Below, piece by piece: positions 18,368 to 60,337 of a stretch of 64,000 bases of DNA. The notes beneath the pieces were generated by a model, which saw only the letters and a list, made by a program, of their open reading frames with translations, was not told the DNA's origin and searched no databases. The position numbers and the translations under genes are program-made. The DNA lies in the NCBI RefSeq assembly GCF_000017185.1, contig NC_009635.1, positions 1,449,189 to 1,513,188 of the forward strand, given 5' to 3'. Origin of the DNA: Methanococcus aeolicus Nankai-3. Lineage in GTDB: Archaea; AGJL01; Methanococci; Methanococcales; Methanococcaceae. Positions within the stretch are counted from its first letter, which is position 1. Each line of letters starts with the position of its first letter.

Positions 18368-18391
18368 ATCTCAAAAAATCCAAAGATTTTT
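18368..18391 (+). repeat. hairpin between trm56 and dcd
   Basis: AAAAATC-CAAA-GATTTTT followed by ATACGATTT, the same linker as in the other hairpin modules. It could act as an intercistronic stem-loop. Confidence 0.45.
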
Positions 18392-18411
18392 ATACGATTT
18401 TGGGTGAAAAT

Positions 18412-41799: not shown

Positions 41800-41988
41800 T
41801 ATAGTTAATCTTCAATAACCGTCCTTTATTTGTCCTATCGTAAAAAAATTCCTCTGGAATTTTGAGGTCGTAAAAACTCCTTCGGAGTTTTGAGAAATTA
41901 TTATGGGCATATTTACTTCGTTTTTAGTAATATATATTTTGGCTTTTTAATTATGGCATATTTATGAAAACGACCAAGATTGACTATA
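41800..41988. mobile_element. MITE-like element, copy D (189 bp)
   Basis: Begins TATAGTTAATCTTCAATAAC and ends GACCAAGATTGACTATA. The core has hairpins AAAATTCC-TCT-GGAATTTT and AAACTCC-TTC-GGAGTTT joined by TCGTAAAA linkers, and a 3' part (GGCATATTTATGAAAACGACC) shared with copy E. Confidence 0.75.
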
Positions 41989-42219: not shown

Positions 42220-42417
42220 TATAGTTAATCTTCAATAACGGTCCTTATCCGGCTTATTATTAAATAAAATCTCTTCGAGATTTTATACAAAAGCATAGCT
42301 TTTGTAAACAAAATCCTTCTAGGATTTTGTAAACAAATTTCTATGTTTTTTAGTAATGTAGTGGTGATTTTGGATTTAATCGTGGCATATTTATGAAAAC
42401 GACCAAGATTGACCATA
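42220..42417. mobile_element. MITE-like element, copy E (198 bp)
   Basis: Begins TATAGTTAATCTTCAATAAC and ends GACCAAGATTGACCATA. Three hairpin modules in a row (ATCTCTTCGAGAT, AAAGCATAGCTTT, ATCCTTCTAGGAT) are separated by ATAC and GTAAAC linkers. Its right third matches copy D. Confidence 0.75.
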
Positions 42418-45062: not shown

Positions 45063-45271
45063 TATAGTTAATCTTAAAAACTATCTCTTTATTGTCCAAA
45101 ATAATTAAATAAAATCTCTTCGAGATTTTGTACAAAAGCATAGCTTTTGTAAATAAAATCCTTTTAGGATTTTATACAAAATCGAAGATTTTGTAAACGA
45201 ATTTTATTATTAAAAGCAAAATATGGGGTTGGAGAATATGATTTAGTGAAACAGTTCGAAGATTGACTATA
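45063..45271. mobile_element. MITE-like element, copy F (209 bp)
   Basis: Begins TATAGTTAATCTTAAAAACT and ends GTTCGAAGATTGACTATA. Four consecutive hairpin modules (ATCTCTTCGAGAT, AAAGCATAGCTTT, ATCCTTTTAGGAT, AAAATCGAAGATTTT) fill the left half. It occupies the junction between the histidine kinase and the convergent radical SAM gene. Confidence 0.72.
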
Positions 45272-46879: not shown

Positions 46880-47072
46880 AAAACGAACGAAGTGAGTTTT
46901 GAATTTTGGTCCGAACCTTTTCGAGCGATAGCGAGAAATCAGAAGAAATCCAAAGGATTTCTTTACTGCCTACGGCATCGTATAACTTGACAAAACCTTT
47001 TCAAGGTTTTGTAAGTCAGCTAATCCAAAGGATTAGCTTCGAATTCACAAAGTGAATTTTAAGATTTTTAAA
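46880..47072. repeat. cluster of hairpin modules
   Basis: About 190 bp made of consecutive inverted repeats, among them AAATCCAAAGGATTT, AAAACCTTTTCAAGGTTTT, GCTAATCCAAAGGATTAGC and AATTCACAAAGTGAATT. Imperfect ends GAACCTTT and AAAGGTTTGGTTC bound the cluster. It has no TATAGTTAATC termini, so it is either another element type or a recombined core. Confidence 0.6.
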
Positions 47073-54552: not shown

Positions 54553-55731
54553 ATGGACAATAATAAAGATAAAAATAACAAAACAGAAAGCACCGTAAAT
54601 ATAGGAATAGTAGTTCATGGACCAGAAATAATTGATTCAGGTAGTGCTAAAATGATTTTTGATTTATTAAATGATTTTAAATATAATTCCACAAAGATAA
54701 AACTAATGGCAAAGTTGGGGGGCACAATTGGAAGGGTGGCAGTTATAGACAACAATTTAGAAAATACAATTGATATCTCGGAAAAATTAGTTCCATCTGA
54801 AAGCTTAAAAAAATTAAATAAACACAATGATATATTATTTTTAATAAATTATGGAAAATCAAAAGAAACAGGGCACACATTCGGTAAAATCGTTGTAGAA
54901 CGAAGCAATATAAAAAATAAAATAGTCATACAAATAGAAAGACCAAAGGAGAAAGACGGCACAATATTAATATGGAATACTCCAAAAAATGATTTTGAAA
55001 ATAAATTAATAAATTATTTATCGGATAAATTAAATCTTCCCGTTGAAAATTGCGTAAGTAAGGGGTTGACAGTTTGGGAGGAAAACAACAATATATACAG
55101 GGAGCTCCATGGAGTAGATAAAGGGGAGGCCATTATGTTAAATGGCATTGTGGTAGGTAGAGCTATTGGAGCTCCTGTAATTTTAGTATCTAACAACAAA
55201 TTAATAGATATAATCAATGGAGAAATAAAATGGCATGGAGTTGAAAAACTTGGAGAGATTGATTTAAATAAGGTTATTATAAAAACAGGTGTTTTAAGAA
55301 GGCATCCATCTAATATAAATAAAAATAAAATAAATAAGATGAATACTAGCCCATCTAACGATATGGGGGAAATAATTATTATAAATCATGCGGGAGAGGA
55401 TGTTTTAGAATCTGTAAAAAATAAGGGAGCTCCCATTGTAATTACTATCGGGGACGATACAACAACCATTTGCGGAGACATTTTAGCCAGATTTAACATT
55501 AAAATAATAGGTATTACAGATGGAGACAGGGACGACATTTTAAAAAATCCAATAATTACAGAAGGTTCAAATATATTTTTAATAAAAAACTATAAAGATG
55601 ATGATGTAGGGAAGATGTTGGAAGAAAAATTGAAAAATAGAAATAAAAAATTTACTTATGATGCAGTATTAAATTATATAAAAGAACTTCTAAATAAAAA
55701 TAAAATTGATTATGATATTGAGCATTATTAA
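54553..55731 (+). CDS. DUF2117 family protein
   Basis: A 392-residue protein of the methanogen-specific DUF2117 group. The N-terminal part has GIVVHGPEIIDSG and LGGTIGRVAVID; the middle GEAIMLNGIVVGRAIGAP; and a C-terminal Rossmann-like half with IVITIGDDTTTICGDI and GITDGDRDD. That last region suggests nucleotide or phosphate binding. It probably shares a transcript with speB. Function unknown. Confidence 0.8.
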   Translation: MDNNKDKNNKTESTVNIGIVVHGPEIIDSGSAKMIFDLLNDFKYNSTKIKLMAKLGGTIGRVAVIDNNLENTIDISEKLVPSESLKKLNKHNDILFLINYGKSKETGHTFGKIVVERSNIKNKIVIQIERPKEKDGTILIWNTPKNDFENKLINYLSDKLNLPVENCVSKGLTVWEENNNIYRELHGVDKGEAIMLNGIVVGRAIGAPVILVSNNKLIDIINGEIKWHGVEKLGEIDLNKVIIKTGVLRRHPSNINKNKINKMNTSPSNDMGEIIIINHAGEDVLESVKNKGAPIVITIGDDTTTICGDILARFNIKIIGITDGDRDDILKNPIITEGSNIFLIKNYKDDDVGKMLEEKLKNRNKKFTYDAVLNYIKELLNKNKIDYDIEHY

Positions 55732-55734
55732 TTA

Positions 55735-55891
55735 GTTTCCATCCTTGTTTTAATGGATGTGTCTTTTAGACTTATATCTATTAATTTGTTGTTGTTAGAT
55801 ACATTTCCATCCTTGTTTTAATCTCAAAATTCACTTCGTGAATTTATACGATTTCCTTCGCTTCGCTCGGAAATGGATATGTCTTTTAGAC
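55735..55891 (-). CRISPR. CRISPR relic: two repeats, one spacer, second repeat interrupted
   Basis: Repeat 1 is 37 nt (55735-55771); on the plus strand it begins GTTTCCATCC and ends TCTTTTAGAC, so on the minus strand it has the canonical GTC...ATGGAAAC form. A 31-nt spacer (55772-55802) follows. Repeat 2 is split: its left 20 nt are 55803-55822 and its right 17 nt 55875-55891, with 52 bp inserted. The halves join to 37 nt and differ from repeat 1 at two positions. No cas genes are in the window and no third repeat is visible. Confidence 0.75.
55823..55874. mobile_element. hairpin insert within CRISPR repeat 2
   Basis: A 52-bp insert with two inverted repeats: AATTCACTTCGTGAATT and ATTTCC...GGAAAT. 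It is bordered by AAT on both sides (55820-55822 and 55872-55874), a possible 3-bp target duplication. TATACGAT between the two hairpins is the linker seen in other hairpin modules. Confidence 0.6.
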
Positions 55892-56060
55892 CCCCTTATA
55901 TTTCTTACTTTTTTTATGATTTTTCTCTTTTATATGCTTTTCGATTTTGAGTGATTTTTCTTACTGGTTGATTATTAAAGAGTATATAATAGCAAGTGTC
56001 ATTTTACCTATTCTTTAAATATCAATACGCAATTATTATAGAATAATAAATCCAAAAATT

Positions 56061-59899: not shown

Positions 59900-60337
59900 A
59901 TTTTCGCCTTTTTTCTTTTTTAATTAAAACTCTTCGAGTTTTAATTTCGTAAAATTCCCGTAGGAAATTTTAGATAGTGAAAATATTCAAATCGCCTGAT
60001 TTTGCGTATTTTTCCTATAATCTCACTATACGGTATTCTCAAATCAATAATTATTATCAATTACAAACATTATTTAATATATTATATAAAGATATATAAA
60101 AAAATAAAGAAAAAATAAAGGAGCTCCATGTAGTAGGTATTCAAAAAGTCAAATTCCAAAGGAATTTGAGTAATGAAAATCACGAAGTGATTTTCATCTG
60201 ATCTGTTCTCCATTAGTCAAAAAGATTACGGAGAGGCATATAATATATCCGTAATATTTTACATACAATGGTGTTTATTAATTAAAAAGTTCTTGAACAT
60301 ACTATAATATCTATAATTTATTAAACTTGGTGAAATG
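59900..60337. repeat. non-coding region with hairpin modules upstream of ABC exporter
   Basis: Contains the perfect hairpin ATTAAAACTC-TTC-GAGTTTTAAT (59923-59945), an imperfect AAAATTCC...GGAAATTTT (59951-59971), GGAGCTCC at 60120, CAAATTCC-AAA-GGAATTTG and GAAAATCAC-GAA-GTGATTTTC (about 60155-60197), and GTTCTTGAAC at 60289-60298 just before the exporter. No gene is seen. Confidence 0.6.

Follow-up and report, generated by a model that had tools for sequence, protein, structure and literature searches.

In the window, as we call the whole stretch of DNA analysed here (64,000 nucleotides of the Methanococcus aeolicus Nankai-3 genome, C1:1449189-1513188), positions 55735-55891 resemble a very short CRISPR array, in which one of two repeats is broken by a hairpin-forming sequence. 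This raises the question of whether the locus really belongs to a CRISPR system and, if so, where its only spacer was taken from and what happened to it afterwards. We consider it probable (about 0.7) that the locus is a retired self-targeting CRISPR array, whose memory was acquired before the repeat was broken.

Anatomy of the mini-array and its relation to the cas genes

Reading the minus strand from 55989 to 55735, the mini-array consists of a leader, a split repeat (R2), a 31-nt spacer and an intact repeat (R1), with 3 bp between R1 and the stop codon of a DUF2117 gene. The features of this region are the following.

54553-55731, plus strand: DUF2117 gene (392 aa; Pfam PF09890, E 8.8e-112), the self target.
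55186-55213, plus strand: putative former protospacer in the DUF2117 gene, which lacks one AAC codon with respect to the spacer; TTA at 55183-55185 as 5' flank.
55735-55771, minus strand: R1, intact 37-nt I-B repeat, leader-distal (terminal), identical to the main-array repeats; Rfam CRISPR-DR7.
55772-55802, minus strand: spacer GTATCTAACAACAACAAATTAATAGATATAA, 31 nt, apparently DUF2117-derived (28/31 positions match 55186-55213, with one 3-nt gap).
55803-55891, minus strand: R2, leader-proximal repeat of 37 nt in two halves (55803-55822 and 55875-55891) plus a 52-bp insert.
55892-55989, minus strand: CRISPR leader, homologous to the main-array leader (84/101 alignment columns identical).
55927-55943, minus strand: putative BRE/TATA element of the leader (CGAAAAGCATATAAAAG), conserved in the main, mini and orphan leaders.

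The minus-strand sequence of R1 is exactly GTCTAAAAGACACATCCATTAAAACAAGGATGGAAAC, which scores 53.6 bits against Rfam CRISPR-DR7 (gathering score 37). The genome, a single contig of 1,569,500 bases, contains the same 37-mer in a main array of 19 regular repeats at C1:1121706-1123032 (18 exact copies and one with a single mismatch, which is the first repeat of the array); zero copies were found in the reversed control. On one side of the main array lies a complete I-B set (Cas6b, Cas3, Cas5b, Cas7/Csh2, Cas8b, Cas1, Cas2 and Cas4), and on the other side a csm (III-A) operon with Cas10/Csm1 and Csm3; the mini-array is about 380 kb away from these cas genes. The mini-array leader lies upstream of the first repeat, on the minus-strand side facing R2, and is 83% identical to the main-array leader over 101 columns of the pairwise alignment (85% over 117 nt in the genome search). 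Within this alignment, CGAAARGCATATAA is a plausible BRE/TATA element that may serve as promoter. The same leader-repeat unit is present in a relative of a sister genus, G033 (three arrays, 85-88%).

Since the same 37-mer forms an array, this array is linked to an I-B cas set and the leaders are homologous, the sequence identifies the locus as a real satellite type I-B CRISPR array and not as a different dispersed repeat. The original prediction had recognised 37-nt repeats around a 31-nt spacer, and this is confirmed by the 19-repeat array and by the Rfam match; it would have lost its ground if the genome had no other copy of the repeat and no cas genes, or if the 37-mer were another kind of dispersed repeat, and the search returned both other copies and full cas loci. 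It was also right that the locus is no longer a normal array, given that R2 is split by 52 bp and carries two substitutions (C to T at the 3'-terminal base, read in the minus form, and ATATCC in place of ACATCC). The mini-array is therefore filed here as a degenerate remnant of a type I-B array, not as a functional one.

Some further observations concern the main locus. In the main array a four-spacer block is duplicated and one more spacer is present twice, and the substitution in the leader-proximal repeat was not inherited by the others, which suggests that no acquisition has occurred since. A solo degenerate repeat at C1:1133001, with 6 mismatches and nearer to the G033 repeat variant, adjoins the csm operon.

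Origin of the spacer

All 14 unique spacers of the genome were compared by BLAST with its own chromosome and with 35 relatives. The sole clear match outside the arrays in the own chromosome was that of the mini-array spacer to the adjacent DUF2117 gene (E 2e-4, genome-wide). It covers 28/31 positions with one 3-nt gap and is perfect except for the number of AAC codons, which are two in the gene and three in the spacer; 14 PAM-proximal bases pair contiguously before the 3-nt shift. The alignment score is 24, the best score among 1433 random 31-mers being 19. The next best match of the spacer is the orthologous DUF2117 site of relative G029, ungapped, with 27/31 identities. The TTA flanking the self target also occupies the PAM position of two protospacers, independent of each other, from relatives that share the repeat type (TCA in one ortholog), a small sample (n=2) with which the self target agrees.

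The original prediction had proposed a search of the spacer against methanogen viruses and plasmids. No match was found in phage, plasmid and IMG/VR collections, so that a viral or plasmid origin is rejected in favour of the neighbouring DUF2117 gene; the phage matches returned by one spacer search concern other sequences than this spacer and appear to be low-complexity matches due to chance. Two spacers from the G029 and G033 arrays match conserved Methanococcales chromosomal sequences (an intergenic stretch and an nrdD-like gene) and no known viruses. A search for local self-acquisition in the relatives' arrays gave no spacer that matched the fetched flanks of G033 or G029.

The alignment of DUF2117 proteins indicates on which side the difference arose. 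In 28 of 29 relatives the protein is longer here by one residue than that of the gene in the window (VSENNKLID vs. VSNNKLID); the spacer, whose translation is VSNNNKLIDI, therefore represents the ancestral length, and it is the chromosome that underwent the deletion. The spacer could also have been taken from the allele of a sister strain. More generally, it may come from another strain or a mobile element with a longer DUF2117 allele, in which case it was never self-targeting and the codon difference is ordinary polymorphism. That the spacer equals the longer, ancestral-length allele and that relatives' spacers also match conserved chromosomal sequences of other Methanococcales would suit this explanation, which we nonetheless regard as unlikely: the array lies only about 0.5 kb from the matching gene, as local self-acquisition would have it, and the match to this genome is perfect bar the AAC codon, with respect to 27/31 in the best relative.

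The insert and its module family

The 52-bp insert in R2, with AAT on both sides, is located exactly where it had been predicted. Two copies of the corresponding module in the window are relevant here.

55823-55874, plus strand: 52-bp insert in R2, a two-hairpin module that folds and has dispersed relatives.
18370-18411, plus strand: stand-alone module copy with the same CTCAAAA start and a TTTATACGATTT linker, before a dcd-like gene.

The insert (CTCAAAATTCACTTCGTGAATTTATACGATTTCCTTCGCTTCGCTCGGAAAT) is composed of a first hairpin (55827-55845), the linker TTTATACGA and a second hairpin (55851-55874). Separate folds give a stem for the first hairpin in most copies, with stem lengths that differ between copies. 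Nine copies of the second hairpin (22 nt) are present in the genome, most of them in the left end of a tnpB (IS200/IS605-type) element or of its remnant; in G023 and G029 the left ends of tnpB elements contain the whole module, including the CTCAAAA start. An nnr-like gene (NAD(P)HX epimerase/dehydratase-like) of G000, G023 and G029 contains an in-frame 48-bp copy that adds 16 residues, and the module is absent from the nnr-like gene of the other relatives.

These homologous modules at dispersed sites uphold the idea that a hairpin module inserted in R2. The insert could instead be a palindrome that arose on the spot when replication or repair erred at the inverted repeat of the CRISPR repeat. 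Its position within the repeat's loop and the general abundance of hairpin pairs in the window are what such an origin would predict; this is very improbable, considering the homologous copies at unlinked sites, which include tnpB-element ends and the nnr-like gene of three species, in frame. As a separate observation, adjacent hairpin pairs are present at 41845-41891, 42264-42330, 45111-45175, 46990-47058 and 60149-60197 of the window, and 5-6 such pairs are counted in the window vs. 0-0.2 in shuffles, which defines a dispersed two-hairpin repeat class.

With regard to how the module moves, the only TnpA detected in the genome is frameshifted (two frames), and no intact Y1 transposase was found. 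The module corresponds to a stretch inside the left end of tnpB elements, and the ends of the module differ from the IS ends, which led us to reject the notion that it is a complete IS605 element of which only the two ends are left. We infer that an IS200/IS605-type (Y1/tnpB) system that acts on hairpin DNA mobilised the module, and that the module probably prefers single-stranded, AT-rich loops like the one in the repeat.

The 3-bp duplication suggested by the original prediction is not supported in that form. All copies end with GAAAT or GAAAAT and are preceded by AAT, AAAT, TAT, TGT or AATC. AAT flanks both sides in the mini-array and in the nnr-like gene; the copy at 18370 is preceded by TAT and that in an orphan repeat by TGT, which contradicts a strict AAT target with a 3-bp duplication. 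Since the module ends with AAT even after bases other than AAT, a duplication is not required to explain the AAT on either side: the second AAT can belong to the module's own stem, and within CRISPR repeats both readings look alike at the sequence level.

Inserts in other CRISPR repeats

An orphan leader at C1:733022-733095 (minus strand), between two gene clusters, is followed by a single repeat and zero spacers. This repeat is split by 31 nt with a CTCAAAA start and a GAAAT end, in module orientation. In G033, multi-hairpin inserts interrupt the leader-distal repeat of both array 1 and array 2 at CATCCATT^AAAACAAGG, where ATT stands on either side; after array 3 comes the remnant of a repeat that contains, at the same site, a module very similar to that of the window. 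None of the internal repeats of the G033 arrays is split, and the G035 arrays show no clear hairpin inserts. The events in G033 are not all independent, because the array trailers share sequence.

In both this genome and another genus, most inserts thus occupy one and the same repeat loop, and the defined insertion site that had been proposed is supported as a preferred site. Two non-exclusive reasons are plausible, namely a preference for the loop and survival only in repeats that are no longer under selection. A broader reading is that hairpin modules of Methanococcaceae preferentially enter the CRISPR repeat loop and thereby fix or retire arrays, as they would have done at both non-main leader loci of this genome and in the terminal repeats of the three G033 arrays, one of the inserts falling on a self-targeting memory; we find this generalisation doubtful.

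Proposed history and present state of the locus

The original prediction missed the leader, the source of the spacer in the neighbouring gene and the origin of the module; taken together with the broken repeat, these suggest the following sequence of events. Cas1-Cas2-Cas4 very probably acquired the spacer from a 31-bp protospacer in DUF2117, flanked by a TTA PAM and about 0.5 kb away, which would have resulted in a self-targeting crRNA bearing the AUGGAAAU handle and the 31-nt spacer. The chromosomal gene would then have lost an AAC codon inside the protospacer, the residue being kept by the spacer and by nearly all relatives, and this loss would remove full R-loop formation and hence self-cleavage. 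As the anatomy suggests, the two-hairpin module would have entered the loop of the leader-proximal repeat after acquisition, which would freeze acquisition and impair crRNA maturation.

During CRISPR adaptation, the new repeat is a copy of the leader-proximal one. R1 is of consensus sequence, and both the insert and the two substitutions are confined to R2; the simplest order is therefore that the insert came after the spacer, and the mini-array contains no later spacer. The sequence is compatible with either order of the codon deletion and the insert. That the codon loss ended targeting is likely from the behaviour of a well-studied I-B system, in which interference and priming are gone with 24-nt spacers (PMC10989794). 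The loss may have been selected as an escape. Chance overlap of an indel with the protospacer is not negligible, considering that DUF2117 of this genome has about half a dozen other lineage-specific indels; we estimate it at some 5-15%, and (AAC)n is prone to slippage.

The mini-array is most likely inactive today. The predicted fold shows that the repeat stem still closes around the insert, and crRNA processing may survive since the insert is in the loop; with stem, leader and promoter-like elements in place, some residual crRNA and a weak CreA-like repression of DUF2117 may persist. A working regulatory mini-array, in which partial PAM-proximal complementarity guides Cascade to repress DUF2117 without cleavage, is a different matter and seems to us quite unlikely. 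It would account for the degenerate first and intact second repeat, the 14-bp seed match with its TTA flank, the retained leader with BRE/TATA and a repeat stem that can form around the insert; moreover, in the H. hispanica I-B system creT is repressed by CreA by way of an 11-bp seed (PMC10989794), and of the CreTA repeats it is the first that is more degenerate (PMC9458426). On the other hand, the target is in the middle of the ORF (about codon 212 of 392) and not at a promoter, and the spacer is a better fit to the ancestral allele than to today's, the reverse of what tuning would produce. In the four relatives examined, the repeat motif was not found beside DUF2117, and spacers of 16-20 nt repress only weakly in the H. 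hispanica system (PMC10989794).

Comparison with known systems

A retired self-targeting array has its closest counterpart in the self-targeting spacers with escape by mutation of target or array reviewed in PMC6990116, with which it shares a chromosome-derived spacer and a survival ascribed to target and/or array mutation. The difference is that here both lesions are at one locus, about 0.5 kb apart, and that the array lesion is a hairpin insert in a repeat, not the loss of spacer or cas genes. Natural self-targeting spacers are usually caught with their survival route unexplained. In the present case the spacer is a dated copy of the neighbouring gene, so that the states of the target before and after can be compared base by base and the autoimmunity-escape scenario is directly testable; as the spacer retains the pre-deletion allele and both lesions are at one locus, the order of events is partly readable.

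The mini-array resembles CreA of the type I-B CreTA in having two repeats, the first of which is damaged, and a spacer-like segment with partial seed complementarity beside its target. It differs in its full leader, undegenerated R1 and target within a coding sequence; furthermore, no toxin gene was identified, and the match is a decayed near-perfect one.

Like REP/REPIN with RAYTs and the miniature elements derived from IS200/IS605, the inserts are short double-hairpin modules with a mosaic arrangement and an association with IS605-type tnpB. Unlike them, the module does not have both ends in common with an autonomous IS605-type element, lacks an intact Y1 partner among the genes found in this genome, and shows no GTAG-type tag. 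Such modules recur in one particular loop of the repeat in two genera, which suggests that this class of small mobile DNA, whose movement is poorly understood, has a preferred site.

Rickettsia palindromic elements are known for in-frame insertions in coding sequences. The 16 residues in the nnr-like gene are a similar case of a palindromic module in frame within a protein gene; the module described here is unrelated to them in sequence, is archaeal and also splits CRISPR repeats.
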